NCBI GenBank assembly: GCA_016840035.1
Contig: JAEOTC010000038.1
Coordinates: forward strand, 62,001-126,000
Direction of reading: 5' to 3'
Source of the DNA: Candidatus Hodarchaeota archaeon
Lineage (GTDB): Archaea > Asgardarchaeota > Heimdallarchaeia > Hodarchaeales > Hodarchaeaceae
DNA length: 64,000 bases
Numbering within the stretch: position 1 is the first letter of the stretch; each line of letters opens with the position of its first letter. The position numbers and the translations under genes were made by a program. Under the pieces are notes generated by a model. It ran no database searches. It was not told the origin of the DNA and worked only from the letters and a program-made list of their open reading frames with translations. Below, piece after piece: positions 14,184-35,350 of this stretch.

Positions 14184-14753
14184 CTAGATTTGAGTCTGTT
14201 CAACAACGACTTTTCGATATTTTATCATTTCTTTGACAAGGTATGCGAATGCAGCTTCAAGATTTTCCCCGCTTCTAATTCCTCCGGGATCTGTTGCTAC
14301 CGTTCCAAATATTTGATATGTATACTCTTTTAGATGCGCTTCAACGAATGCTTTCAGGATGAAGTCAGGAGAAAGTGCGATTGGCAAATCCTGTTTATTT
14401 GCAATCACTAAGATAGGTATTTTACCTGGTATCAATCGTAAAGCTTCATCCAACCACTGTTCATCATTTCTAAAATTCCTTTGAGAACTATCGACAATAA
14501 AAACTATCCCATCAGCTGTTCTTACAAATCGTTCATGGTATCGCATATCTAAAAACCGCTTCTGCCCACCCACATCAATTAACCCTAACACAGCAGAATC
14601 TATCTCAACATGAGATACTCCAAAGGCTATTGTTGGTTTAATATTTCTTGGGGCTGGATACCCATGTTCCAAATAGAAAGCGATGGAGGATTTCCCTACT
14701 CCGCTGGTACCAAGAAGTATCACCGAAAATATGTTATCAGATGAAGTCTGCAT
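14184..14753 (-). CDS. Arf/Arl-like small GTPase
   Basis: Small GTPase of the Arf/Sar branch. G1 is GTSGVGKSS, switch I has the KPTIAFG threonine, G3 is DVGGQ (Arf hallmark, with glutamine), G4 NKQDL and a G5-like GTVATD. No prenylation motif. An in-frame TTG 16 codons upstream would extend the protein to 205 residues, but I prefer the ATG giving MQTSSDNIFSVILLG because the extra residues do not look like a typical Arf amphipathic helix. No myristoylation glycine at residue 2 in either version. It may work with the Rab-like GTPase and ESCRT genes nearby; that is inference from context. Confidence 0.9.
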   Translation of the reverse strand: MQTSSDNIFSVILLGTSGVGKSSIAFYLEHGYPAPRNIKPTIAFGVSHVEIDSAVLGLIDVGGQKRFLDMRYHERFVRTADGIVFIVDSSQRNFRNDEQWLDEALRLIPGKIPILVIANKQDLPIALSPDFILKAFVEAHLKEYTYQIFGTVATDPGGIRSGENLEAAFAYLVKEMIKYRKVVVEQTQI

Positions 14754-14982
14754 ATGGAAATGAATCCTAGTATTACTACTAATGGCTGAAATAGTACTCA
14801 AACATTAGAGATATTAGTGTAAGTTAAATCTCCTATACACTAATTGAAAATGGAATCGAAACTTTAAAAGAGATTCCAAACTAAAATTAATATTAAGAAC
14901 TTGGAAAACTAACTAGTTATTTCAATAGAAATTTATGAGGATATTTTCCTATGAAAATTAGTTTTTATTTTTCCCTTTGTGA

Positions 14983-18216: not shown

Positions 18217-18669
18217 CTATTTTTGGTTCCAATGCGCATAACGTCGAATATAATCGCCAACCTGATTTTGAAAGACCCTTCGATTTCGCTTCCATTGGCG
18301 CGCAGCAGTCGCATTTAGGGGGTCATCGGGATTGGGACTTGTTAGAAGGAATCGAATTGTCTCCACCACCTGCACTAAACTATAAGCTGGACTCCAATCC
18401 TTCCCAAGAATACCTACACACACTTTTTCTCTGAATATGTTCACATGCCAAATGGGAGTCTTAAACCTGACCTTTGGAGGTTCAAATGGATAACTACGAG
18501 GAATTTTTATTTCAATTACAAACACTCCCCCCTCATATAACCCAGATCCTAAAATTTCACCTTTCCAGAAAGTCAAATCGTTGTTAACTGATCTAAAAGT
18601 TGGTTGTTCCCGAGTCAACTCTTGAGCTTCGATTGCAAGTCGATCTAACCATTCTTCTTCAGTTAACAG
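18217..18669 (-). CDS. E2-like ubiquitin-conjugating enzyme
   Basis: Takes ubiquitin from the E1 and transfers it. It has IKIPRSYPFEPPKVRF, HVN in place of HPN, the catalytic cysteine in KVCVGILG, DWSP and the LLTSPNPDDPLN loop, all canonical. A TTG (18616-18618) would give 133 residues, but the frame stays open upstream and encodes WLDRLAIEAQEL, the expected E2 helix 1. No ATG/GTG/TTG exists there; the best start is CTG at 18667-18669 preceded by GGTGAAAAAGAT, giving 150 residues. ATA and ATT codons lie further up. This is the only active-site E2 seen; the ESCRT UEV is its inactive relative. Confidence 0.92.
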   Translation of the reverse strand: MLTEEEWLDRLAIEAQELTREQPTFRSVNNDLTFWKGEILGSGLYEGGVFVIEIKIPRSYPFEPPKVRFKTPIWHVNIFREKVCVGILGKDWSPAYSLVQVVETIRFLLTSPNPDDPLNATAARQWKRNRRVFQNQVGDYIRRYAHWNQK

Positions 18670-22070: not shown

Positions 22071-23204
22071 ATGCCTGAATGGGATTTAATTCTTTACACA
22101 GACGAAAAACAGAAAAATGTTCTGAATAAACTAAAACTTTCTGATAAAACTTTGTCCGCTGCGGGCCAACACGGAAAAGCCACTATTCTCGTGGATCATC
22201 AGGGGAAAGAATGGCTTTTGAAGATTTTCTCTAATATTCTAGATTTAGAGGTAAAAAAAGTATCCGACTTGGATATCGATATTCAAGATACTCCCGAACG
22301 GAGTCGTGACCGACTTCATTTATGGCGAGTATTAAATGAGATTACAGCATCACGACTTGGAAGACGTTTGTACCTAAATGTTCCCGAAACACGGATAATT
22401 TGTTCAGGTAAGGTTGCCAAATTTAAGTTAAAGTCCTCAACAGTCCTTAAAGAAGAAGATGTGGTAGTTTTAGATGAGGAAGAGGAAGAAGGGGAATCAG
22501 CAGAGGAATTTTATTCTTTTTCTGAGCGAGAAATTGGGTCTTTGAAAACTTCTGATCGGTTTGAAGAAATTCTAGCTCAAAAAAGTCCACGGAAAAATCC
22601 CACAGATATTTTAGCTCTTCTCCAAGAAAAAGTTCCAGATTCTCGGAATATTGATGAATACTTAGATGATCATAAGGCCGATTTAGATGCAGCCTTTGAA
22701 AATATTCAAAGCATAGATGATGCTTTTCTCCTTCTGCCTTTTGATATCTGGTTAAACGATCCTGATCGAAATGCTGGCAATTATTTAGTCCAGCTGAACG
22801 AGAAAAATGAAGCTTCACGAATTTGGGGGATAGATTATGAAATGTGGTCCTTTGGAAGCGATATTTGGATGGAAGAAGATAATGTAACCCAAGGAAGAAG
22901 TTATCTTACCGCAATAATCCATCCAAAAAGTCATATTTTCGATTCACGGGTCAATCAAACATTCTACAGAATAAGAATGCTTTCCGATGAGGAAATAGTT
23001 CAAATGACTAAAGCTCCTCAATTGGCTTGTAAGTTTTTCGAATTCCACATAAATACGGGCGATCTACACCCTGATGAGAGAGATAAATTAAAGCAAGTGG
23101 AGATTAACCTTGAAGATTTTCTGATTGAGTCCCGTCCACGTTCAGATAAATTAAGTGAAATCATCACACGTCAAATAGGTTTACCTAAAGACTTTAAGAC
23201 TTGA
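22071..23204 (+). CDS. HipA/phosphatidylinositol 4-kinase-like kinase-fold protein
   Basis: Protein-kinase-like fold of the HipA/PI3-4K branch. WLLKIF supplies a candidate ATP-binding lysine (K51); WRVLNEITASRLGRRLYLNVPET (about 85-106) matches the conserved helix-and-loop of this family; DIWLNDPDRNAGNY (225-238) is the catalytic loop with the Asp...Asn pair; GIDYEMWSF (254-261) is the metal-binding D motif. An acidic insert (EEEEEGESAEE) lies at 136-146. Without a HipB-like partner gene, a toxin role is not supported; a eukaryote-like lipid kinase role is possible but unproven. Converges on ackA. Confidence 0.72.
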   Translation: MPEWDLILYTDEKQKNVLNKLKLSDKTLSAAGQHGKATILVDHQGKEWLLKIFSNILDLEVKKVSDLDIDIQDTPERSRDRLHLWRVLNEITASRLGRRLYLNVPETRIICSGKVAKFKLKSSTVLKEEDVVVLDEEEEEGESAEEFYSFSEREIGSLKTSDRFEEILAQKSPRKNPTDILALLQEKVPDSRNIDEYLDDHKADLDAAFENIQSIDDAFLLLPFDIWLNDPDRNAGNYLVQLNEKNEASRIWGIDYEMWSFGSDIWMEEDNVTQGRSYLTAIIHPKSHIFDSRVNQTFYRIRMLSDEEIVQMTKAPQLACKFFEFHINTGDLHPDERDKLKQVEINLEDFLIESRPRSDKLSEIITRQIGLPKDFKT

Positions 23205-23229: not shown

Positions 23230-24408
23230 TCATAAAACAGCACTCTCAAGCAAGTTCTTTGTCTTTAAGGCCATCATGTATTCTTCATCGGTAGGAATAA
23301 CCACAACTTCTATTTTGGATTCTGAAGATGAAATAATCACTTCTTCCTCTCCATTAGCTCCCTCGTTCTTTGAGATATCAATGGAAACATCTATACTATT
23401 CAGTCCCTTCACTATCAGTCTTCGAAAGTAAGAAGATCTCTCACCTATCCCACCTGTGAACACAATCGCGTCTAATCCTCCCAAAGCAATAAGGTACGCT
23501 CCAATATATTTCCGAATTCTGTAGGCAGCCATCTGAACAGCTAATTCTGCAGAGTGACTCCCCTTCAGAGCACTTTCCTGGATATCCCGCATATCTCTAA
23601 AATTCCCTGTAATTCCCAATAAGCCACTCCTTGAATTTAATTCTTGATCGATTTGATCAATGGTCAAATTTCCAGAACGCATCATAGCTAGTATTAAACC
23701 TGGGTCTATATCCCCCGATCGCGTGCCCATTATTAGGCCCTCTAAAGGAGTTAACCCCATACTTGTATCAATTGATTTTCCATCATATACAGCTGTTACT
23801 GAAGCTCCATTCCCAAGATGTAAGACGATTAGCTTTTTAGATTTCTTTAAACTAAGTAAACTTCTCGTTCTATTAGTCACATATTCAATAGATGTTCCAT
23901 GAAACCCATATCTCCGGAAAGAATTTTCCTCATACCACTTTCCTGAAATCGCATATCTGTATGCATATTCTGGAATCGTAGCATGAAAAGAAGTATCAAA
24001 AACTGCAATATGAGGAATAGCTGTTAATTTTTTTTTACTAGCTCGGATTCCAATTAGATTAGCGGGATTATGAAGTGGGGCAAGCTTTGATAGTTTTTCT
24101 ATCTGAGATTCAACCTCAGTATCAATGATCAATTCTCTTCGGAACTGTTCTCCCCCATGTACTACACGGTGAGCTACAGCTTTAATCGTATTAATGTCGA
24201 AGAATGTTAAGACATAATCTACAGCCTCTTCATGAGTAGCACAACTTATTACCTTGGTAACTTCCTCCTCCTTGCTTTTATGATATATCTTTGGTTCAGG
24301 GAGGCCTATTCGTTCCACTAATCCTTTAGCTATTAGCTGTTCTTTCTCCATGTTATAGATCGAATATTTTAGAGAGGAAGATCCTGAATTTATCGTTAAA
24401 ATTGTCAA
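23230..24408 (-). CDS. ackA: Acetate kinase, last gene of BMC operon
   Basis: Converts acetyl phosphate and ADP to acetate and ATP. NSGSSSLKYSIY at the start, HRVVHGGE (about 83-90), FDTSFHAT, RRYGFHGTS with the catalytic His/Arg region, HLGNGASV and FTGGIGE are all present. 392 residues is normal. AckA has not been a general archaeal enzyme (most archaea use ADP-forming acetyl-CoA synthetase), which fits lateral gain with the microcompartment genes. It follows the aldolase gene by 10 bases and takes the product of PduL. No targeting peptide seen, so it likely acts in the cytosol. Confidence 0.97.
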   Translation of the reverse strand: MTILTINSGSSSLKYSIYNMEKEQLIAKGLVERIGLPEPKIYHKSKEEEVTKVISCATHEEAVDYVLTFFDINTIKAVAHRVVHGGEQFRRELIIDTEVESQIEKLSKLAPLHNPANLIGIRASKKKLTAIPHIAVFDTSFHATIPEYAYRYAISGKWYEENSFRRYGFHGTSIEYVTNRTRSLLSLKKSKKLIVLHLGNGASVTAVYDGKSIDTSMGLTPLEGLIMGTRSGDIDPGLILAMMRSGNLTIDQIDQELNSRSGLLGITGNFRDMRDIQESALKGSHSAELAVQMAAYRIRKYIGAYLIALGGLDAIVFTGGIGERSSYFRRLIVKGLNSIDVSIDISKNEGANGEEEVIISSSESKIEVVVIPTDEEYMMALKTKNLLESAVL

Positions 24409-24418
24409 AAAGACCCCT

Positions 24419-25867
24419 CTAGTAGGTACCTTTAGGTGTATCAGTCCCTTTTACAATAGCAATGGATGCTGATGCACCAATCCTAGTTGCTCCAGCGTTT
24501 ATCATCTGCTCTGCAATCTCGTGAGTTCTTATCCCTCCAGCTGCTTTTACACCCATTTCTGGACCTACTGTTTTTCTCATCAGAGCAATATCCTCAACTA
24601 ATGCTCCTGCAGTACTGAAACCTGTAGAAGTTTTAACAAAATCTGCTCCACTTAATTTTGTTAACAGACTACCTTTAACTATTTGTTCCTTGGTTAGTAG
24701 AGCAGTTTCAAGAATGACCTTTACTATGGCTTTCCCTGCAGCGGCATTTACTACCGCTTGGATATCCTCCCTAACTAAGTCATCGTTACCTGATTTCAAC
24801 GCTCCCACGTTAATAACCATGTCTACTTCATCTGCTCCATTTGCTACAGCATCTCGAGTTTCAATTGCCTTTACGGTGGGGGTAGTTGCTCCTAATGGAA
24901 ATCCAATTACAGTACATACTTTCACTGAGCTACTTTTCAAATATTTGGCTGCTTTTGCTACATTTGTAGGATTAATACATACTGATGCGAATTTATACGT
25001 TGCAGCTTCTTCACATAGTTGTTTAATCTCTTCTTCAGTTGCATCTGCACGGAGATTAGTATGGTCGATATACTGAGCAAGCTCCATATCATACCCATTT
25101 ATCCCTGTCTCAGAGGTAATTCTTGTTGCTCCTCCATTAACTAATGCTTTAACAGCAGCTTGAGACTTTCCATCTAATCCAATCTCTTTCCCTGAAGTCC
25201 CAATTGTGTATGATCGATCAGAGGTGGTTGGGATATAGGGAGAGGGTTCTTGATCAGTTATCTGATGAACATCAACAATTTTGATTCCCATAGTCCTTAA
25301 TTGATCAATAATTCCCTCAATACGTCTATTCATTGCAGGTGGGACTTGATCTTTCTCAATCTGACAACAGTAGATGGAATCATATGCTGCAATAACTGGT
25401 TTTCCATACATCAATCCAAATACTAGGGTTATAGTTCCCAAGGAATCTGCGTTCAAGGCCGCTACTTTAGCTGCAGTATTTAAGGATAATATAGGCACAT
25501 AAATAACATCTACCCGACTTAAAATATTGTCAAAAAACTGTTCAGAATAATCAGTAATAATTGTGGCTCCTTCAGAGACTTGTCTAATATCAGGTAAACC
25601 AATTATTTTTATTGCTGCACGAGTCATTACGATGTAAGTATTAGTATACGATTTTGAGATTTTTTCTATTTGGTGCATAACTTCATTAATCTCTTTATTC
25701 CCCCCACATAGTAGAATTAAAGCTGAGTTTCCTGAAGCTATTGTATAATTGATTTTCCGATTAGAAGTCTGTAAATTCGAATCGAACTGTTGTTTGGGAG
25801 CGAGATTATCTTGATCAAGCTTCCTCATCACTTCTTCAGTGATTTTCTGTATCATCTCATTACTCAT
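24419..25867 (-). CDS. deoC: Deoxyribose-phosphate aldolase with N-terminal targeting helix and flavoprotein-like domain
   Basis: Cleaves 2-deoxyribose 5-phosphate to glyceraldehyde 3-phosphate and acetaldehyde, the entry step of the compartment. Residues about 262-482 are Deo[15 protein letters not shown] (D349), the Schiff-base lysine K412 in VKTSTGF and K441 in KAAGGIRT. Residues 2-19 ([18 protein letters not shown]) form an amphipathic helix like BMC encapsulation peptides. Residues 40-205 are an extra alpha/beta domain resembling flavoprotein-like domains and the separate flavoprotein of this operon (31261-31980). DeoC is usually about 220-260 residues, so this is a fusion. Located between the BMC-P genes and ackA. 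Confidence 0.95.
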
Positions 25868-25887
25868 TTTCTTTACCCAAAATTATT

Positions 25888-26178
25888 TTAACTTAATTCA
25901 GTTTGTTTTCCATCCACTTCAATATAATCAATAACACCTACTATTAATGCATCCACAGCGGCTTTGTCATTATGCATTATACCTCGTATAGAGTTACCTT
26001 CTCGGATAACAAGGACACAATCCCCGATTCCAGATTTGGCTACATCTAGAGCGATGATAGAAGGCTCAGTGAAATTTCCTTTCAGATCTATCGGACGTAC
26101 CACAAGTATTTTTCCGTTTTCATGACTCTCAGTTTTAATTGGAGCAACTACATTGCCGATTACTTTAGCAAGAATCAT
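25888..26178 (-). CDS. BMC-P shell vertex protein (EutN/CcmL family)
   Basis: Pentamer that caps the vertices of a microcompartment shell. AKVIGNVVAPIK at the start, KILVVRPIDL, ALDVAKSGIGDCVLVI and AVDALIVGVIDYIEVDG are the EutN/CcmL strand pattern. 96 residues is the usual size. Overlaps the start of the next shell gene by 4 bases on the same strand. One of three BMC-P genes here; the others are at 26175 and 30959. Confidence 0.96.
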   Translation of the reverse strand: MILAKVIGNVVAPIKTESHENGKILVVRPIDLKGNFTEPSIIALDVAKSGIGDCVLVIREGNSIRGIMHNDKAAVDALIVGVIDYIEVDGKQTELS

Positions 26179-26717
26179 TCTGTTTCACTTTCTACAATTT
26201 TTGGTTTAATTTCACGAATCTTTTTTGGTTTCTTCTTTCGAGTGGCCCTTTTTCTTGGTTTTGGTTTAACTACGGGCTTAATTTCTTCAACTACTTCGGG
26301 TTCCTCTACTTTCGTTTTCGGGATCGGTTCAAGTATCTCCTCTTTGGGAATTTCCCCGATTTCTTCATCTAGACTTATATCAACTTGTTTTAATGTTGCT
26401 GGAGGGGCCTTCTTCTTCTTTCTCTTCTGAGGTTTGCGTTTTGCACTTTTTGTAACATAATATTCCTCAATATATCCAACTATACACTCATCAATCGGAA
26501 CGAGTTCCTTTGGAAAGACAATAGCTGCCTCCTTTTTACTTACTACATACACAATATCTCCAGGTCCTGCAGTTTCAATGCCATCAGCGGCAACATATGG
26601 ACTTCCCAAGGGTTGAAGATTATCATCTAGACCTTGAACTACTAGAAGTCGGAGAGAATTTAATCCTGGATCTTTTGTTGAGGCAACAACATTCCCTATT
26701 ACTTTTCCAAGTTTCAT
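26175..26717 (-). CDS. BMC-P shell protein with long charged C-terminal tail
   Basis: Residues 1-87 are a EutN/CcmL pentamer fold (KLGKVIGNVVAST, LLVVQGLD, GIETAGPGDIVYVV, IDECIVGYIEEYYV). Residues 88-180 are a low-complexity extension: a basic block (KRKPQKRKKKKAPP), an acidic/proline middle (EEIGEIPKEEILEPIPKTKVEEP) and a second basic block (KPKPRKRATRKKKPKK). Bacterial BMC-P proteins rarely have such tails. It could tether the vertex to cargo, nucleic acid or membranes. Stop codon overlaps the following BMC-P start. Confidence 0.95.
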   Translation of the reverse strand: MKLGKVIGNVVASTKDPGLNSLRLLVVQGLDDNLQPLGSPYVAADGIETAGPGDIVYVVSKKEAAIVFPKELVPIDECIVGYIEEYYVTKSAKRKPQKRKKKKAPPATLKQVDISLDEEIGEIPKEEILEPIPKTKVEEPEVVEEIKPVVKPKPRKRATRKKKPKKIREIKPKIVESETE

Positions 26718-26721
26718 GTAA

Positions 26722-27180
26722 TCACGCTGATTTTAAATATTTCAATTCAATCTCGGAAATCTTATTTACTCTGGTCTCGTGTCTTCCACCACCGAAAGGA
26801 GTAGATAACCAAATCTTAACAATATTTTGCGCAATTCCTGGACCAATTACTCTCGCACCTAAAGTCAGGATGTTAGAATTATTGTGTTCACGAGCGGAAT
26901 TCGCAGTAAATTCATCCGTGCAAGGAGTTGCTCGAATTCCTTTAATTTTATTTGCTACAATTGCGCTAGCTACGCCTGTACCATCGATGAGAATCCCAAC
27001 GGATTCAACTGAGACTGCAACTGTTTGTGCTACTAATAATGCAATATCAGGATAATCCACAGGATCTGTAGAATAACAACCATAGTCCGCAACTTCGTAT
27101 CCTATTCCTTTCAGGAATTTTATCAGATCATTTTTGAGATGGAAACCACCATGATCCGATCCAATTATTATTTTCTTCAT
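26722..27180 (-). CDS. rpiB: Ribose-5-phosphate isomerase B
   Basis: Interconverts ribose 5-phosphate and ribulose 5-phosphate. RpiB/LacAB features: GSDHGGFHLK at 8-17, DYGCYSTDPVDYPDIA, GTGVASAIVANKIKGIRA with the active-site region and TLGARVIGP. 152 residues, normal. RpiB marks the sugar-phosphate-utilising type of microcompartment. It is placed between shell genes (BMC-T and BMC-P) of the same operon. No N-terminal targeting helix is seen, so location inside the shell is not certain. Confidence 0.95.
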   Translation of the reverse strand: MKKIIIGSDHGGFHLKNDLIKFLKGIGYEVADYGCYSTDPVDYPDIALLVAQTVAVSVESVGILIDGTGVASAIVANKIKGIRATPCTDEFTANSAREHNNSNILTLGARVIGPGIAQNIVKIWLSTPFGGGRHETRVNKISEIELKYLKSA

Positions 27181-27205
27181 TTGACTTCAACTTGTAATAT
27201 AAAAC

Positions 27206-27757
27206 TCAAAGCAGAGTTTTTACTAGATCTGGATGAGGAGCAGGAATTACAGCAGTGGATAATACTAATCCTTCTCCTTTTACACGATTAACCCCAGCAT
27301 CTACAGCTGCTCGCACGGCACCCACTTCTCCTGTTAAAACAACAAACGCCTTTCCACCTATTGCGCGACTCATCCGAATTTCGATTAACTGTACCTGCGC
27401 ACTTTTAACAGCTTCGTCACCAACCATGATCGCTGTAGGAGCAGAATAAGTTTCTACTACTCCTATCGCGCCTACTTTTTCAACTCCAGATGTACCCGCA
27501 ATTGCTGGAAAAACCTCAGGATGTATATTGGGAATTACTGTGTAATTTACTAAGGTTTCACCTGCTATTTCACTTCCAGCGATTAGAGAGCTTTGAACAG
27601 CTGCAACTGCTCCTTGAATAATGATTAAATATTTTCCAGGACATACTGGTGAGGCGAATAATAGCTCGACTTCTGCTGTTTTCGCTATTGTATCGGCACT
27701 CAGTATACCTCGAGCAATTACATTTGTTTCTAGAACTCCTATAGCACGCATTTTCAT
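27206..27757 (-). CDS. BMC-T tandem shell protein, PduT-like with pore cysteine
   Basis: Trimer-forming shell protein with two BMC domains (about 4-90 and 93-183). AIGVLETN and AIGVVETY mark each repeat; both end with VIPxxHP. The pore loop of repeat 1 is ASPVCPGKY with C39, matching the cysteine that binds a [4Fe-4S] cluster in PduT (TICPGKF). The second repeat lacks it. This implies an electron relay across the shell with the PduS-like protein. Follows the BMC-H gene and the hairpin at 27797-27820. Confidence 0.96.
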   Translation of the reverse strand: MKMRAIGVLETNVIARGILSADTIAKTAEVELLFASPVCPGKYLIIIQGAVAAVQSSLIAGSEIAGETLVNYTVIPNIHPEVFPAIAGTSGVEKVGAIGVVETYSAPTAIMVGDEAVKSAQVQLIEIRMSRAIGGKAFVVLTGEVGAVRAAVDAGVNRVKGEGLVLSTAVIPAPHPDLVKTLL

Positions 27758-27796
27758 TTTCCTCTAAGATTGTAAACAAAGATGAAAGTAGTGAGC

Positions 27797-27820
27797 ATTA
27801 GCTGCTCTCTTGCAGCTAAT
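27797..27820 (-). promoter_or_regulatory. Perfect 9-bp hairpin just after the BMC-H stop codon
   Basis: ATTAGCTGC (27797-27805) and GCAGCTAAT (27812-27820) pair perfectly around a 6-base loop in the gap between the BMC-H and BMC-T genes, starting 7 bases after the BMC-H stop on the transcript. Position suggests an mRNA-stability or processing element that raises the level of BMC-H, the most abundant shell protein, over downstream genes. No T-run follows directly, so not a typical terminator. Confidence 0.5.
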
Positions 27821-27827
27821 TGTTTAT

Positions 27828-28118
27828 TCAACCTTTCTTTGGGAGAATACTCTCAACTTCATCATGGGGTCGAGGAATTACATGAGCTGAGGTTAGTTCA
27901 CCAACTTTTCGTGCAGCGACTGCACCAGCTTCAACAGAAGCTTTCACAGCACCAACGTCACCTCTAACCATTACAGTAACAAAACCACCGCCAATAACTT
28001 CGCGTCCCATTAAATGAACGTTCGCTGCTTTCACCATAGCGTCAGCTGCTTCAATAGATGCAACTAACCCTTTTGTTTCTATCAATCCAAGTGCTTCTTT
28101 AGCCATTTTTTTCACCAA
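27828..28118 (-). CDS. BMC-H shell hexamer protein (PduA/EutM-like)
   Basis: Main facet protein. The sequence tracks bacterial PduA/Eut[28 protein letters not shown], the pore region [26 protein letters not shown] and [15 protein letters not shown]. Such closeness to bacterial proteins indicates lateral transfer. 96 residues. Pore loop is G-G-G in place of G-S-G of PduA. First of the shell genes after PduS; the hairpin after its stop may keep its message stable. Confidence 0.98.
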
Positions 28119-28130
28119 TTTTTTTGTCTT

Positions 28131-29456
28131 TTATTTTGTCTTTTCAATGACAATTTCTTGTCCAATTTTGCGAATAATTCCGCTAATACTAGCATGAATT
28201 ACTGCACCTAGTGACCCATCTGGAATCTTTCCTATGAGTGCACCTTTTTCAACCGAATCTCCTACTTTTACCGTTGGAATTGCAGGATCTCCGATATGTT
28301 GTTTGAGAGGGATGGAAACTTTTCGAATCTGTAATTTTCGTTTTCGTATTGGACATTCATGATTATAATTCAATAGATCCAATCGTGAAATTAATCTTTT
28401 TACAGGTAATTTTCGATATTCCCTCTCAGGATGAATCGATAATACTTTTCGATTATGAGTATTCTTTAAACCCTCTACCCTCAACTGTCCCTTTACTTCT
28501 GTCATCATTTTACATGGATCCAACCCCATAGGACATCCATAATATGTACAAGCTCCACATTCCACACAAAGGAATGTTCCCGTCATATAATCGGGTCTTT
28601 CTGGAGCACCCCATGCTATTCCTCGCATAACTTTGTCAGGATGTAATTCATGGCCCAATAAGAATCTAGGACAGACATCTGTACATAATTGACATCTTAT
28701 GCATGCTGCTTTGGTAACAATTACTTTGGATGAGATCCGTTCAGTTTTCATTCTGATTACAAAATGATTCTCTGGCAAAACAATTATTCCAGAAGTTAAT
28801 TTGGTAATAGGTTTTTTAGGGGCAATTACTGTACCCATCATGGGTCCATTTATCAATACTTGATAATCATCGATTGTAGCTCCCCCTGCAGCTTTTATTG
28901 CATCCTTTATTGAGGTACCAATTGGAAATTCCATCGTAGAGGGGTTTTTAACAGCGCCTGTTATGGTTACATAACGAGATACTATGGGATTTCCTTCAGC
29001 GGCCTCAGCTAGATTGATCAATGTATAGACATTATTTACTACGACTCCAATGTCAAGAGGGAGTCCACTTTCCGGAATTATTTTACCTAAAGCTTCATAA
29101 ACAAGAACATGTTCATCTCCAGCAGGATAAACATCATCGAGAAGGAATATCTCGATTCTGGAATCAGCTTTGACCACTTGTTTAAGCTTCTTAATTGCAG
29201 TTTTATACTTCCTTTTTACAGCGATTATTCCTCGCTTCGCCCCAGTGGCTTTCATTCCTAGCTGTAATCCAGTTATTAATTTTCCTGGACAGGTTGTCAT
29301 TAATTGCTGATCCACTCTTAATAATGGTTCACATTCAGCTGCATTAACTATAAACGTATCTACTTTCGCAGAAAGCTTCACATGTGTAGGAAAACCAGCT
29401 CCACCAGCTCCAACTATTCCAGAATTTCGTGCCATGTCTGCTATTTCGGAGCTCAC
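28131..29456 (-). CDS. pduS: PduS-like flavo-iron-sulfur protein (RnfC-related)
   Basis: Electron-transfer protein of microcompartments (cobalamin reductase in Pdu systems; RnfC/NuoF-related). GIVGAGGAGFPTHVKL at 13-28, NAAECEPLL, a Rossmann/SLBB-type middle and two cluster motifs CIRCQLCTDVCP and CVECGACTYYGCP for [4Fe-4S] binding; the C-terminus has a biotinyl-like hairpin (VKVGDSVEKGALIGKI). No diol dehydratase or cobalamin gene is present, so here it more likely reoxidises NADH made by the aldehyde dehydrogenase and passes electrons to the Fe-S site of the BMC-T protein. 12 bases before BMC-H. Confidence 0.93.
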   Translation of the reverse strand: MSSEIADMARNSGIVGAGGAGFPTHVKLSAKVDTFIVNAAECEPLLRVDQQLMTTCPGKLITGLQLGMKATGAKRGIIAVKRKYKTAIKKLKQVVKADSRIEIFLLDDVYPAGDEHVLVYEALGKIIPESGLPLDIGVVVNNVYTLINLAEAAEGNPIVSRYVTITGAVKNPSTMEFPIGTSIKDAIKAAGGATIDDYQVLINGPMMGTVIAPKKPITKLTSGIIVLPENHFVIRMKTERISSKVIVTKAACIRCQLCTDVCPRFLLGHELHPDKVMRGIAWGAPERPDYMTGTFLCVECGACTYYGCPMGLDPCKMMTEVKGQLRVEGLKNTHNRKVLSIHPEREYRKLPVKRLISRLDLLNYNHECPIRKRKLQIRKVSIPLKQHIGDPAIPTVKVGDSVEKGALIGKIPDGSLGAVIHASISGIIRKIGQEIVIEKTK

Positions 29457-29483
29457 TTATATTTGCCTCGTTTTCTTTTGATT

Positions 29484-30911
29484 TCAAATGATTCTAAAAG
29501 CATCCACTAGAGTACAACGTCTTTGACGTGTAAAAGTTCTTGCTGAGGTAAGTCCTTCTCCCGTTGGTCCTGCAATTGTCATAGTAGTATAGCCTTCCCC
29601 TCCGAATCCAATCCCAGCAAAGGAGGGGGCATTTTTGACAAAAATTGTAGTTTCGATATCTTTTGCCACAAGACTCATATTTCCAACTGAATCGCTCCAC
29701 ATCATTGCTGTGTGTTTGAATCCATGTTCAGCCTTCTTTGCTTTTTGCAAAGCTTCTTCTATTGATTTCACTCTAACTATTGGTAAGACTGGCATCAACA
29801 TTTCAGATATTACGAAGGGATGTTCATCATCAGGCACCTCTGCAATTATCAACCGGATATTGTCACTAACCTGCACTCCGATTCCCTCAAGAAGTATTTT
29901 GGCATCTTTTCCGATGAAGTCCCTGTTTACTATGGGAAATCTCCCTTTCTTTCCTTTGAAAACGAGATTAGTCAGTTGGACTATCTGATCTCCAACAATT
30001 TCATATGCACCATAATTCTTCATTTCTGCTTTTAATCGATCAGTGATGACATCAAATGCGAATACTTCTTTTTCTACAATACATACAATATTATTATCAA
30101 AACTTGCGCCTTCTACTATTCCTCGGGCTGCTTTTTGAATATTTGCAGTATCATCAACTATTACAGGAGGATTTCCTGGTCCTGCACATATCGCTTTTTT
30201 TCCAGATTGCATTGCAGCTTTTACTACTGCACTTCCTCCTGTTACAACTAGACACCGAATCTTTTTGTGTGTCATTAAAGTCTGGGCTGACTCAATCGTA
30301 GGGGATATGGTTGATGTAAGAACATTTTCTGGTCCCCCCGCTTCGAGAATTGCCCTATTCAATAATCTCACAGCTTCATTACTTGCTCTTTTAGCTGATG
30401 GATGAGGATTAAATACTACGCTATTTCCTGCCGTAACCATTGATATTCCATTGTTAATTATCGTTGCTGTTGGGTTTGTTGAAGGAGTAATTGACCCAAT
30501 TACGCCATAAGGAGCCATTTCAACAAGTGTTAATCCTTTATCACCCGTCCATGTATTTGGTACCAGATCTTCTAAGCCTGGAGTTTTTCGAGCACAGAGC
30601 AAATTCTTTGCTACTTTATCCTCTAATCTCCCTAGACCAGTTTCTTGGATTGCTAATTCAGCTAGATATCGTGCATGTTTAATAGCGGAGTCACGCATCG
30701 ATTGTATGATTTCTTTTCTTCTCTCCAAAGATAAATCCATTAGTGCTACTTGACTCTTTTCCGCAGCCTCTATTGCCTGTTCAATGTCCTGGAATATTCC
30801 TCCACCTGCACTAGTGGGAATATTCTCCAATCCTGAATAGACTTGATAAGCTCTTATTTTCTGTACAACAGAATTGACGATTTTTGCAATTTGTTGTTCG
30901 TCATATGACAT
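29484..30911 (-). CDS. CoA-acylating aldehyde dehydrogenase (PduP/EutE-like)
   Basis: Oxidises acetaldehyde with NAD+ and CoA to acetyl-CoA. ALDH fold: GVIGSITPSTNPTAT (about 136-150), TGGSAVVKAAMQSGKKAICAGPGN (about 224-247), FDNNIVC with nucleophile C277, the PduP/EutE signature. Residues 4-20 (DEQQIAKIVNSVVQKIR) are an amphipathic helix typical of BMC targeting peptides, linked by a Gly-rich stretch (TSAGGG). 475 residues. Catalytic core enzyme of the compartment; no alcohol dehydrogenase is encoded beside it, so NADH is not recycled by ethanol formation here. Confidence 0.97.
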   Translation of the reverse strand: MSYDEQQIAKIVNSVVQKIRAYQVYSGLENIPTSAGGGIFQDIEQAIEAAEKSQVALMDLSLERRKEIIQSMRDSAIKHARYLAELAIQETGLGRLEDKVAKNLLCARKTPGLEDLVPNTWTGDKGLTLVEMAPYGVIGSITPSTNPTATIINNGISMVTAGNSVVFNPHPSAKRASNEAVRLLNRAILEAGGPENVLTSTISPTIESAQTLMTHKKIRCLVVTGGSAVVKAAMQSGKKAICAGPGNPPVIVDDTANIQKAARGIVEGASFDNNIVCIVEKEVFAFDVITDRLKAEMKNYGAYEIVGDQIVQLTNLVFKGKKGRFPIVNRDFIGKDAKILLEGIGVQVSDNIRLIIAEVPDDEHPFVISEMLMPVLPIVRVKSIEEALQKAKKAEHGFKHTAMMWSDSVGNMSLVAKDIETTIFVKNAPSFAGIGFGGEGYTTMTIAGPTGEGLTSARTFTRQRRCTLVDAFRII

Positions 30912-30958
30912 TTATCTACCTTCGTTTCGTTTTTTATTTTCTTACATAAAGGGAAATC

Positions 30959-31249
30959 TTATTTTCGATAAGTTTCTTTTCCATTTATTTGGATAAAATC
31001 TATGATAGCTTGGATCGTTGCATCTGTGGGTTTATCCTTGGTCATTGCAGTTAAACGAGATGAACTTCCAGTAACAACTAGTACTAATTCGTTCTCTCCC
31101 GCACCAACTGCATCAATTGCCACGAAAGGAGAACTCTCTGGTTTTAAATCAGTCATATCCACTGGTTGTACTATCATTAATTTAAAGCCTTTAATACTGG
31201 CATCCTTCTCGGTACTTACTACATTTCCTATTACTTTACACACTTTCAT
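30959..31249 (-). CDS. BMC-P shell vertex protein, third copy
   Basis: EutN/CcmL-type pentamer: CKVIGNVVSTEKD, LMIVQPVD, FVAIDAVGAGENELVLVV and IDFIQINGKE. 96 residues, no tail. Three different BMC-P genes in one locus suggests mixed vertices or special roles. Sits between the aldehyde dehydrogenase and the flavoprotein genes; start is 11 bases after the flavoprotein stop. Confidence 0.95.
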   Translation of the reverse strand: MKVCKVIGNVVSTEKDASIKGFKLMIVQPVDMTDLKPESSPFVAIDAVGAGENELVLVVTGSSSRLTAMTKDKPTDATIQAIIDFIQINGKETYRK

Positions 31250-31260
31250 GTAAATATCTC

Positions 31261-31980
31261 CTAAATCTTAATTATCTTTATATCAAGCATTTTAGCTTTT
31301 TCTTGTGCTAAGGGGGTAATAATAGTTGAATGGGGTACAAATATTTCGTGAATTTTACCTTTTAATCCCTCTAAATAATCCTCGGTAATTAAATCTGGTA
31401 TAGCTGGAGTATGTTTGACAAATTGATCTTCTAAGTCCTCTATGTCAACAAGTCTGAATCCCATTTCGATTAAAGTAGATAAATATCGACTCAGATTATT
31501 AGTTAACATACCCGATGGGCCATAGTCAAATGTTAAATCTGTGGGAGGAAAAGGTGTTACAATATAAACAGGAATTTTAAATAACAACCCTTGAAGTAAT
31601 AAATTAACAGTTGAATTGGAATCTTCAAATTTTGTTATTTTTTTTGCTATTTCAAAACTAAAGGCACCAAACATAATTGATTTAAGATTACTGTAAAAAT
31701 TTAGGCAAAAATCTCCAAAAGGATTAACTAAAACGTCCATTGTGGGAATTGAACCTGCTTTTGTGGTTATTTTCTTAGCCTGGTCAATTTCATCCTTTGT
31801 CCAGATCAGGACTTGCATTTTTTGTTCGGCTAATCTAATTAGGGATTGTAATAATTCATCCAATCCTTGTCCCATATGGGTTAAGACACCTAGGACATCG
31901 TAAGGACCTAGGTTATGCTCATTCTTGAGAACACTCTTAACTTGCTGTGTAACGAGTAATTCGAGCTCTTTCTCATTCAT
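31261..31980 (-). CDS. BMC-associated flavoprotein-like protein
   Basis: 239-residue alpha/beta protein. Residues 1-19 (NEKELELLVTQQVKSVLKN) look like an encapsulation helix. The body (20-239) has VLGVLTHMGQGLDELLQSL, MQVLIWTKDEIDQAK, SIMFGAFSFEIAKKI, GLLFKIPVYIVTPF and HSTIITPLAQEKAK, which resembles flavoprotein (PPCDC-type) domains often found in BMC loci, and shares its layout with the N-terminal domain of the DeoC fusion here. Function of such proteins is not established; FMN binding is predicted by family only. Followed by BMC-P. Confidence 0.7.
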   Translation of the reverse strand: MNEKELELLVTQQVKSVLKNEHNLGPYDVLGVLTHMGQGLDELLQSLIRLAEQKMQVLIWTKDEIDQAKKITTKAGSIPTMDVLVNPFGDFCLNFYSNLKSIMFGAFSFEIAKKITKFEDSNSTVNLLLQGLLFKIPVYIVTPFPPTDLTFDYGPSGMLTNNLSRYLSTLIEMGFRLVDIEDLEDQFVKHTPAIPDLITEDYLEGLKGKIHEIFVPHSTIITPLAQEKAKMLDIKIIKI

Positions 31981-31995
31981 GATGCTTCACTCTTG

Positions 31996-32316
31996 TTAAT
32001 CTCTTCCAGGATCCTCTTCTACGCTTGAAGTTCGACTTCTGACTTTCTCAATAAGATCAACCGTCACCTGATCAGGTCTTGGAATTACATTAGTTAATAA
32101 ACCACAGGAGATCTGACGTAGTTGGACTTTTGCTGCTTCAATTGCTTCACGGACAGCAGCGACCTCTCCCTCAATTATCACAATAACCAATCCCCCTGAA
32201 ACACGTTTTAAGGAAATAAGGCTCACATCTGCGGTTTTCATGGCCGTATCTGTTGCCACAATGGCTCCTATCCGACCGCATGTCTCCATAAATCCTAAAG
32301 CTTTCATTAAAATCAC
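31996..32316 (-). CDS. BMC-H shell protein, second type
   Basis: Single BMC domain: KALGFMETCGRIGAIVATDTAMKTADVSLISLKRVSGGLVIVIIEGEVAAVREAIEA with a C-terminal HIPRP-like NVIPRP and a short acidic tail (SSVEEDPGRD). Diverged from the PduA-like copy at 27828 and with a different pore (VSGG), so it may be a minor facet component or select a different metabolite. The start overlaps the stop of the citrate synthase-PduL gene by 4 bases. Confidence 0.93.
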   Translation of the reverse strand: MILMKALGFMETCGRIGAIVATDTAMKTADVSLISLKRVSGGLVIVIIEGEVAAVREAIEAAKVQLRQISCGLLTNVIPRPDQVTVDLIEKVRSRTSSVEEDPGRD

Positions 32317-34169
32317 CTGAACGGAGAATAAGATCCTTCTTTTAAATCCAAAATCAGACTCCCCATTTCTCCCGTATTCAGTGCAAGAGCATTACCCTCG
32401 TCAAGGTCTAAATGGAGCTCCAAATTATAATCCGGGTGAATTCTAACCATGATCTCGTCTAGGATTCCAGCTCGGGTTCCAGGAAATTGAACAGCAACTA
32501 TCTGTCGATCTGACACATTTAACCTTTGCGCATCTTTTGGTGACATGTGGATGTGTCGCGCTGCGAAAATGACTCCCTTATCCAAAGTGATAGCTCCCTT
32601 TGGACCAATTATGTGTACTCCTGGAGTATCTCTTAAATCTCCTGATTGACGTGTTGGTGGATTAATACCTAATACATAACCGTCACTCCGAGATATTTCA
32701 ACTTGAGTTTCGTCTCTGAAGGGGCCAAGAATACGAACTCCATAGATGGCTCTTTTGGGGCCGATTAGATCAACAACTTCTTTGCATGCATACTGTTTTG
32801 GTTGAGTTAAGGAATTAAGGGGAGTTAAAACTGCTTTTTCTCCAAATAATTTGTGAAAATCGGCTTTTGAAAGGTGGATGTGACGTGCAGATAAGGATAC
32901 TGGAATTAAATGATCATCGAATACTTTAGTCAGCTCATCGGTGACTAATCTCTTCACTAGTTCTCCAGCTGCTGACTGTGTACTTCGTTGTGAAATGGGT
33001 TGATATTCACAACCTAATGGACCGCAATATCTTCCTACATATTCAGCAGAGGGTCTATAAATCACTGGTTTGACGGTAGGAGTTTCGGGATACTTCTCTT
33101 CTAAAACATGAGCAGTCCAACCAGCGACTCTCGATGTAGTAAAAATCGGTGTAAAGAGTTCAACTGGGATATTTAAGCTTGTATATACCGTGGCACCATA
33201 TAGATCCACATTAGGATATATTCCACGATTTTTTCGCTTCTTAAATTCTTTTTGAGTAATCTCAACCAACTTATTGGTAGTTTCATACATCCATTGAGCT
33301 AATCCACCCTTCCTTCTCACAAGATCTGCAGCCATTTCCTTCAATATTTTGGCTCTCGGATCTGTAGTTTTATATACGGCATGTCCCATCCCCATAATTC
33401 GTTTACCTTCATTAAATCGATTTTTGACCCATTCCTCAGCACTTGAGACTTTCTTAATCTCCATTAAGCTTTCATAAACTAAATGATTAGCTCCCCCATG
33501 ATACATCCCTGATAAAGAACCAATGGCACCAGAAATAGATGCATATAGATCCGCTCCAGTAGATGCAATGACCCGAGCTGTGAATGTGGAAGCATTGAAA
33601 GAGTGTTCTGCATGTAGAATTAGTGTGACATCAAAGATCCTTGCTTCTTCATCAGTTGGGATACTCCCATGAAGCATGTAGAGGAAATTTGATGCATATT
33701 TTAGATTCTTATTTGGAGCGATTGGTTCTTTATTGCTACGAATTCTCTCCCATGCGGTCACAATAATAGGAAGCCGAGCTATTATTCTAATTGCAATATT
33801 TCGATCGGATTCTCTTTTTCCAGTCCCGATCTCGTTGTTGTATCCTGCTAGTAAAGCTAATGAAGATTGGAGTACACTCATAGAAGGGGTATTCTTTGAG
33901 GTTTTCTGTAAATGTGAGATTAATTGTGGTGGTAAATCCTGATTTGAAATTATTGCGTTCTTAAAACTCTCCAATTGATCAAAAGAGGGGAGGTTTCCGT
34001 ACAGAAGTAAGTAAACTACCTCTTCGTAGGTTGAATTTCTTGCTAACTCATTAATGTCATAACCTCGGATAAATAGATTGCCTTTTTCACCTTCTATAAG
34101 ACAAATATTTGTATCCGCAACCTCAACACCGCGAAGTCCTGTTGATTTGTGGCTATGTTCTTCAATCAT
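32313..34169 (-). CDS. Citrate synthase-PduL (phosphotransacylase) fusion, first gene of BMC operon
   Basis: One 618-residue polypeptide with two complete enzymes. Residues about 10-395 are citrate synthase with the catalytic triad present: H224 in YHGGAN, H263 in GMGHAVYK and D322 in YPNVDLYG, plus SRVAGW and RPSAEYVG; a methylcitrate synthase is the alternative. Residues about 422-618 are PduL phosphate acyltransferase with the metal-binding HIH pairs (430-432 and 539-541) and HLDLDEGNA. The linker (400-418, AAGELVKRLVTDELTKVF) resembles a BMC targeting helix, as found at the N-terminus of ordinary PduL. Both domains use acyl-CoA and release CoA, so the fusion would recycle CoA by two routes. 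Fusion not known to me elsewhere. Confidence 0.93.
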   Translation of the reverse strand: MIEEHSHKSTGLRGVEVADTNICLIEGEKGNLFIRGYDINELARNSTYEEVVYLLLYGNLPSFDQLESFKNAIISNQDLPPQLISHLQKTSKNTPSMSVLQSSLALLAGYNNEIGTGKRESDRNIAIRIIARLPIIVTAWERIRSNKEPIAPNKNLKYASNFLYMLHGSIPTDEEARIFDVTLILHAEHSFNASTFTARVIASTGADLYASISGAIGSLSGMYHGGANHLVYESLMEIKKVSSAEEWVKNRFNEGKRIMGMGHAVYKTTDPRAKILKEMAADLVRRKGGLAQWMYETTNKLVEITQKEFKKRKNRGIYPNVDLYGATVYTSLNIPVELFTPIFTTSRVAGWTAHVLEEKYPETPTVKPVIYRPSAEYVGRYCGPLGCEYQPISQRSTQSAAGELVKRLVTDELTKVFDDHLIPVSLSARHIHLSKADFHKLFGEKAVLTPLNSLTQPKQYACKEVVDLIGPKRAIYGVRILGPFRDETQVEISRSDGYVLGINPPTRQSGDLRDTPGVHIIGPKGAITLDKGVIFAARHIHMSPKDAQRLNVSDRQIVAVQFPGTRAGILDEIMVRIHPDYNLELHLDLDEGNALALNTGEMGSLILDLKEGSYSPFR

Positions 34170-34402: not shown

Positions 34403-35350
34403 GTGATGATTAGAGGCTTTTCAAAATATACTTCTTTTACTTGTTCGGATTGTCACATGAAATGCTGTGCGACCGAGTTCAATCTTCCAATAAGTGGGTT
34501 AGAAAAAGAATATCTTACCCAAAATTTTCCAGAATATCGACATTACTTACAATCTACAGAAAAAGGATCTTTTATACTCCGAGGAAACTCATGTCCTTTC
34601 TTGACAACCGCTGGATTGTGCCAACTGCATGCTAAATCAATAAAACCTCTTACATGTAGAATTTACCCCTTAATTTTCTGGCGATTCAACCAAAAAGATA
34701 CTTTAGTTTCTATACATCCCTGTCGGGGACATGGATTTCAATGGTATTCTAGAAAGAAATCATCTGTTGGTAATAGCTTTATCAATCAGCTATTATCTGC
34801 TAGTAAGGAGTATTATGACACTTATTGGGGGGAAGAAATCGATGCAAACAATCCTTATGAGGGAATTTCTCAAGCAAGAATTAAAGACCAACTCGAAGCT
34901 TATCGTCATACTTCAAAGGATAAATTGCTAGTAACCAACTTGAAAAACCCTGATTTATCCTCACGAATTCCATTTTCTCAGGCGTTTCAGGAGAAGGCTT
35001 TAGAGATCATCGATGGAGGGAGCATTGGAAATTTTTTAAATTCTGTTTTCAACTGGTTAATTTGGAGTCCAGTAGGCTTGCACTTATCAATAAAAAATGC
35101 TCAAACGCTTTTTACTACCGCTGCATTATGGTTAATTGACCAAACTGAGGTAAATTCGAACATACTTTCCTCTATTCCTCCTGAATCACAGTATTATGAG
35201 CAAACATCCTCGTTCTATGCGAGTTCCTTAACTCCTTCTTTCTGGGAAAATATCCTCGCTCAGAAAACCCTCCCCACTCTAAGTACCTTTGCAGAGAAAG
35301 TCCGCTTAATTCTCATGGGAGAACTTCCACAAGATGATTTACTTAAATGA
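34403..35350 (+). CDS. YkgJ-family Zn/Fe-chelating domain protein
   Basis: N-terminal cysteine cluster typical of the YkgJ (CxxCxxxCC) family: CSDCHMKCC (residues 14-22), then SCPFL, GLCQLHAK and PLTCRIYPLIFW, ligands for iron-sulfur or zinc. Residues 130-315 are helical and not recognised. Function of this family is unclear. GTG start follows a perfect GGAGGT site. Divergent from the BMC operon, no indication of involvement with it. Confidence 0.9.
   Translation: MMIRGFSKYTSFTCSDCHMKCCATEFNLPISGLEKEYLTQNFPEYRHYLQSTEKGSFILRGNSCPFLTTAGLCQLHAKSIKPLTCRIYPLIFWRFNQKDTLVSIHPCRGHGFQWYSRKKSSVGNSFINQLLSASKEYYDTYWGEEIDANNPYEGISQARIKDQLEAYRHTSKDKLLVTNLKNPDLSSRIPFSQAFQEKALEIIDGGSIGNFLNSVFNWLIWSPVGLHLSIKNAQTLFTTAALWLIDQTEVNSNILSSIPPESQYYEQTSSFYASSLTPSFWENILAQKTLPTLSTFAEKVRLILMGELPQDDLLK

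Follow-up and report, generated by a model that had tools for sequence, protein, structure and literature searches.

Can an archaeon possess a complete bacterial microcompartment (BMC), and if so, what would such a protein organelle do in its host? This question is raised by an operon at positions 23230-34169 of a 64,000-nucleotide stretch of DNA from a Candidatus Hodarchaeota archaeon (contig JAEOTC010000038.1 of GenBank assembly GCA_016840035.1, positions 62,001 to 126,000), which, at its full length, is the window analyzed here. We are nearly certain that this is a real, conserved archaeal BMC locus. Its most plausible interpretation, to which we assign a probability of about 0.7, is that of a functional metabolosome of the sugar-phosphate-utilising (SPU) type, of bacterial origin, with two outlets for acetyl-CoA, one of them citrate. 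A paper from 2019 describes BMCs as occurring only in bacteria, and not in archaea or eukaryotes (PMC6620236), and our search of the open-access literature, with subscription papers and preprints outside it, recovered no report of an archaeal or Asgard BMC. This agrees with the view of the earlier note on this DNA, made from the sequence, that an archaeal BMC would be unusual, no description of one being known to it.

The operon consists of 13 co-directed open reading frames (ORFs) on the minus strand, with intergenic gaps ranging from -4 to +70 nt. Beginning with its first gene, and followed by the flanking genes, it comprises (EP denoting encapsulation peptide):

32313..34169 (-), fusion of citrate synthase (residues 11-373, PF00285) and PduL (residues 423-597, PF06130)
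31996..32316 (-), BMC-H, the first hexameric shell protein (PF00936, E=4e-21)
31261..31980 (-), 239-aa flavoprotein-like, possibly UbiX-like, protein with an N-terminal EP-like helix and a weak match to TIGR02536
30959..31249 (-), BMC-P, a pentameric vertex protein (PF03319, E=2e-29)
29484..30911 (-), CoA-acylating aldehyde dehydrogenase (AldDH) with an N-terminal EP-like helix, an invariant C277, a match to NF011927 and relatives in the PDB
28131..29456 (-), PduS-like, RnfC-related flavin/Fe-S NADH oxidoreductase (Complex1_51K/RnfC_N) with 8 invariant cluster cysteines
27828..28106 (-), second BMC-H, the probable major shell protein (PF00936, E=8e-29), start set to the ATG at 28106
27206..27757 (-), PduT-like BMC-T with a pore-loop cysteine (CPGKY) invariant in 7 genomes
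26722..27180 (-), RpiB-like isomerase with Asp at the catalytic Cys position
26175..26717 (-), BMC-P with a C-terminal tail of about 92 aa rich in Lys, Arg and Pro
25888..26178 (-), BMC-P (PF03319, E=5e-20)
24419..25867 (-), DeoC deoxyribose-phosphate aldolase (DeoC domain at residues 262-472) with an EP-like helix and an N-terminal domain of about 240 aa that is not assigned to a family
23230..24408 (-), acetate kinase, AckA (PF00871, E=3e-133; TIGR00016), missing from the G051 locus
22071..23204 (+), left flank, conserved 377-aa gene, syntenic in relatives with and without the BMC
34403..35350 (+), right flank, gene with a CxxCxxCC domain, syntenic

Pfam families were assigned far above cut-off to all 13 operon ORFs except the 239-aa gene, with PF00936 in three genes and PF03319 in another three. 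These family scores, together with the retention of the entire gene order in six further genomes, exclude chance. The 13 minus-strand genes with short gaps or overlaps that the earlier note had delineated were all found at their coordinates, and its reading of their products (two BMC-H, one BMC-T, three BMC-P, DeoC, RpiB, AldDH, a PduS-like protein and acetate kinase) was borne out by Pfam and NCBIfam. Its assignment of the set to the SPU type is likewise supported by the presence of DeoC, RpiB, AldDH and the shell proteins together in an Asgard chromosome. It had considered the surroundings archaeal, and MetRS, eS30 (PF04758) and E2 (PF00179) were indeed identified there, as were eL42 and IF-2. 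Two details needed amendment: the ATG at 28106, and not the TTG at 28118, is the most likely start of the second BMC-H, given that a stop codon lies just upstream in two relatives; and the "PduL fusion" does contain PduL, but its partner, a full-length citrate synthase, had been overlooked.

The earlier note had proposed searching Asgard genomes for PF00936 and PF03319, and the shell-domain and PduL searches, which covered about 224-393 archaeal relatives, recovered the locus repeatedly in one genus. PF00936 was detected in eight of the 228 genomes of the phylum, all within the 12-member genus of the window, and in none of the 216 other Asgard genomes. Among 393 relatives, a set which must reach beyond the phylum given that the phylum search covered 228 genomes, PF03319 occurred in seven of the same genomes, in addition to a single 39-aa fragment elsewhere. 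PduL scored above cut-off in precisely the eight BMC-positive genomes. The named carrier records come from several isolate series, and are labeled Candidatus Hodarchaeota (YT2_004, YT2_065 and YT5_056) or Candidatus Heimdallarchaeota (bin272, bin6 'chromosome' and B3_Heim); two records bear the label 'chromosome', and three of the eight carriers are single-contig assemblies. Six further genomes share the gene order and the flanking genes on both sides, bar the acetate kinase absent from G051. The G050 locus is interrupted by a run of N; a deletion there was considered and rejected, as the scaffold gap explains the truncation. Synonymous sites are near saturation against close relatives in most operon genes, just as in MetRS, with dN/dS (the ratio of nonsynonymous to synonymous divergence) of about 0.02-0.08 for the shell and core genes. 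The BMC tree and a host tree built from MetRS and the 377-aa protein display the same deep split, and the codon usage of the operon correlates with that of the flanking genes at r=0.976. The BMC locus has been vertically inherited in this one genus over a long time under purifying selection.

As for what the organelle might do, SPU BMCs are characterized by a DeoC-type aldolase (pfam01791) and RpiB (pfam02502), are encoded by loci in 26 bacterial phyla and are proposed to use products of DNA breakdown (Sutter et al. 2021, PMC8217296). The Hodarchaeota locus contains both families, and shares with SPU loci the AldDH and the BMC-H, BMC-T and BMC-P shell proteins, but differs from them in its archaeal host, its citrate synthase-PduL fusion and its basic BMC-P tail; the word 'citrate' does not occur in the main text of that paper. 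The closest list of enzymes is that of an SPU-like locus from Latescibacteria (Axen et al. 2014, PMC4207490), with AldDH, PduL, PduS, an RpiB-like protein, an aldolase and acetate kinase, although the aldolase there is of class II, in contrast to the DeoC seen here, and no citrate synthase is mentioned. The metabolosome core pair of acylating AldDH and phosphotransacylase is encoded, and both members exceed their NCBIfam cut-offs (AldDH, NF011927, 660 bits against 403; PduL, NF011652, 246 against 209), with C277 of the AldDH invariant. DeoC scores 287 bits against the TIGR00126 cut-off of 117, and its lysines K412 and K441 lie inside invariant blocks.

A role in deoxyribose-phosphate and acetaldehyde metabolism is quite probable. 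In the proposed pathway 2-deoxyribose-5-phosphate from the breakdown of DNA or nucleosides would enter the shell, where DeoC would cleave it to glyceraldehyde-3-phosphate and acetaldehyde; AldDH would then convert acetaldehyde to acetyl-CoA and NADH, and PduL and AckA would carry acetyl-CoA via acetyl-phosphate to acetate and ATP. PduS would reoxidise the NADH, with the PduT-like BMC-T conducting electrons across the shell. The BMC-T is nearest to PduT and has the CPGKY pore loop in all seven genomes, and the eight cysteines of the PduS-like protein are invariant. None of the 13 locus genes encodes an alcohol dehydrogenase, which is also lacking from some previously described metabolosome loci (PMC4207490), and the PduS/PduT-like pair is in place. 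Hence, by analogy with the Pdu system, the likely route of NAD recycling runs from NADH through PduS and the PduT-type cluster to the cytosol. The resemblance to the Pdu relay (PDB 3n79, 3nwg) lies in the PduT-type BMC-T with its pore cysteine and the RnfC-related Fe-S flavoprotein; unlike the Pdu metabolosome, the Hodarchaeota locus has neither an alcohol dehydrogenase nor B12 enzymes.

The N-terminal EP-like helices of DeoC and AldDH lie above the 99th percentile of amphipathicity; those on the flavoprotein-like protein and before PduL are weaker. The N-terminal domain of DeoC had no relative in the PDB, and shows only a weak relationship to the 239-aa protein (hhalign probability 60%). The latter has no Pfam match; its structural model (pLDDT, the predicted local distance difference test score, of 64) yields weak, non-significant matches to UbiX-like folds, pointing with low confidence to a flavoprotein-like α/β fold.

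Independent support for the DeoC/acetaldehyde role comes from the genomes lacking the BMC. Four of the 12 members of the genus are BMC-negative, and all retain the 377-aa and CxxCxxCC genes at the BMC site. In G048 (L081:4813-8795) and G044 (L083:8630-12283) the site is occupied by DeoC along with an aldehyde:ferredoxin oxidoreductase (AFOR or AOR; domains PF01314 and PF02730 were identified in G048), while in G052 (L082:1-1426) an AFOR lies there at the contig end. In G042 (L084:5487-6188) the site contains only a DeoC; it shares 77% identity with the BMC copy, lacks the first 260 residues and the EP-like helix, and is probably the scar of a lost BMC. The sister genomes G048 and G043, of which G043 carries the BMC, have flanks of about 95% nucleotide identity on both sides of the swapped segments, which measure about 12.2 kb for the BMC in G043 and 4.0 kb for DeoC-AFOR in G048. 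Given that G048 nests with full support inside the BMC-positive clade, the parsimonious reading is that the BMC was replaced there by DeoC-AFOR, presumably through homologous recombination. Both modules open with DeoC and close with an acetaldehyde-oxidising enzyme, this activity of AFOR being the one expected of its family.

The most distinctive element of the locus is the first gene, in which both domains are recovered with high significance (citrate synthase E=1e-122; PduL E=2e-70). The best NCBIfam model for the citrate synthase is the mixed TIGR01800, at 411 bits slightly under the cut-off of 421. Its catalytic and substrate-binding residues H224, H263, D322, R272, R347 and R372 are invariant in all eight BMC copies, as are, among the locus copies, the histidines and glutamate expected from the family to form the zinc site of PduL. 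The two domains are fused in seven genomes and encoded by adjacent genes in G049, where the citrate synthase stop codon lies about 75 nt ahead of the PduL start. The fusion junction (residues about 402-417) is an amphipathic EP-like helix, and the same segment opens the separate G049 PduL as a helix of the encapsulation-peptide type; this correspondence suggests that the citrate synthase may have been joined onto the targeting helix of PduL. In a tree of 43 citrate synthases the BMC copies are sister to those of Asgard family f25 (G173/G174) with 100% support, and the two share a C-terminal insert absent from every other sequence in the tree, with a CGPLGC motif in the C-terminus specific to the BMC copies. 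This grouping implies that an archaeal citrate synthase was probably added to a bacterial-type organelle, either by this archaeon or by a near relative of it; bacterial sampling in the tree was thin (six sequences from plasmid records and Thermus), and the enzyme may instead stem from an unsampled bacterial source.

As a second exit for acetyl-CoA the fused enzyme would condense it with oxaloacetate to citrate, a branch that would also restore the private CoA pool and tie the organelle to biosynthesis. That deoxyribose-derived acetyl-CoA is turned into citrate within the shell by this captured Asgard enzyme is a tentative proposal, slightly short of an even chance, and we are no more confident that citrate is a physiological product. 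No paper joining microcompartment, citrate synthase and PduL was found in the open-access literature. Aconitase and nucleoside phosphorylases occur in the genus. The 87%-complete assembly G000 has no further canonical full-length citrate synthase. It does encode a citryl-CoA-lyase-like protein of about 260 aa with a citrate synthase domain (C196:4223-4930) and a protein of about 630 aa with such a domain, probably ATP-citrate lyase (C281:7996-8652).

With respect to the shell, a full set of BMC shell genes is encoded, predicting that a shell is formed. The synonymous divergence of the second BMC-H is 0.26-0.44, that of eL42/eS30 is 0.22-0.45 and that of the other operon genes about 0.4-0.75; most simply, selection on the codons of a strongly expressed gene for the major shell protein would account for the low value, with a recent exchange of the gene as an alternative. 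The BMC-P tail (26175-26441; 92 aa with 29 Lys/Arg and 12 Pro) appears disordered, and basic tails of 49-98 aa with 19-30 Lys/Arg are present in all seven genomes. Possible ligands of these tails are nucleic acid and other polyanions.

The search for a bacterial relative by a contig scan of genomes with AldDH yielded two bacterial loci only. One SPU locus, from Krumholzibacteriia (L045, JAQULN010000005.1), resembles that of Hodarchaeota in having RpiB, DeoC, BMC-H, BMC-T, three BMC-P and an AldDH 53% identical to the archaeal one, but differs in that its RpiB and DeoC are fused (a 432-aa ORF at L045:3858-5156), its pore motif is HPGRY rather than CPGKY and no match to PduL, PduS, AckA or citrate synthase lies in the locus. 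PduL was absent from 80 Krumholzibacteriota genomes. In 294 Planctomycetota genomes most of the PduLs closest to the archaeal one are fused to AckA and have no BMC genes in their vicinity; the others are separate PduLs beside BMC-H. Such AckA-PduL fusions, of about 600-800 aa, are common in Planctomycetota, and those in the fetched loci (L086-L098) are not accompanied by BMC genes. No citrate synthase-PduL fusion was seen among the fetched Planctomycetota PduL loci, from which its absence from bacteria is not claimed; none of 289 plasmid records covers 80% of the fusion, and viral contigs gave no match.

Several points weigh against a functional, citrate-producing metabolosome of bacterial origin. 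The search did not reveal the nearest bacterial donor: 53% identity was the highest seen for an AldDH from outside the genus. In the RpiB-like protein, which scores above its family cut-off, IDGTG replaces (I/L)CGTG in seven of seven genomes, placing Asp at the catalytic Cys; the identical change in the Krumholzibacteriia locus suggests that SPU 'RpiB' may have a different substrate or mechanism. G043 and G051 have a second canonical citrate synthase, so the BMC copy is not always the sole one, and the AlphaFold model of the fusion, from a shallow alignment, is poor (pLDDT 49). The functional reading is a prediction from the genes, and the citrate branch one from sequence. Finally, all carrier genomes are metagenome-assembled, which, with the scaffold gap in G050, is what could be said for a bacterial contig artificially joined to archaeal DNA. 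Such a chimera, the possibility raised by the earlier note, is contradicted by eight carriers, three of them single-contig, with the same flanks, a congruent deep split and ameliorated codon usage, and by relatives in which the syntenic site is intact and either empty or differently occupied, including the BMC-negative sister with about 95% identical flanks; we reject contamination or chimerism as having practically no likelihood. A decaying, non-functional relic might be suspected from the loss or replacement of the BMC in four of 12 genomes, the missing AckA in G051 and the separation of PduL from citrate synthase in G049, but intact frames and the low dN/dS of the shell and core genes make this very improbable.

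A more serious alternative, though still unlikely, is an ordinary horizontally acquired SPU metabolosome in which citrate synthase serves only as another means of freeing CoA or as a structural scaffold, and citrate is not a physiological product. Both citrate synthase and PduL release CoA from acetyl-CoA, the standard pathway is complete with PduL-AckA alone, and the CGPLGC motif could be structural. Yet the catalytic residues have stayed invariant in eight genomes despite saturated synonymous divergence, G049 keeps the citrate synthase as its own gene beside PduL, and several BMC-positive assemblies lack another canonical citrate synthase. The flux could also run differently, with AckA and PduL converting acetate to acetyl-CoA that then feeds citrate synthesis, or with a reversed citrate synthase splitting citrate and PduL-AckA yielding ATP. 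Fusions often join consecutive steps, as PduL and citrate synthase would be in either order, and aconitase and the probable ATP-citrate lyase are present; but DeoC, AldDH, the shell and the DeoC-AOR replacement would be left unexplained, and citrate cleavage by citrate synthase is thermodynamically unfavourable (textbook knowledge), rendering this option improbable. We favor the SPU-type metabolosome with citrate among its acetyl-CoA outlets.

If correct, this would be the first BMC from an archaeon and also the first to have a citrate-synthase branch, in which an organelle supplies biosynthesis in addition to forming ATP, and the fusion would widen the known chemistry of metabolosomes. Some analyses position the Hodarchaeota, as an order, beside the eukaryotes; the complete, conserved and codon-adapted set in them shows that genes for a protein organelle have passed from one domain into another and been retained. 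Shell assembly in an archaeal cytosol thereby becomes a testable question, and the in-place swap with DeoC-AOR offers a natural comparison between compartmented and soluble disposal of acetaldehyde. Near the BMC locus the window also encodes a small GTPase of the Arf/Ras-like type (14184-14801) and the E2 (18217-18618), both typical eukaryote-like genes of Asgard archaea.

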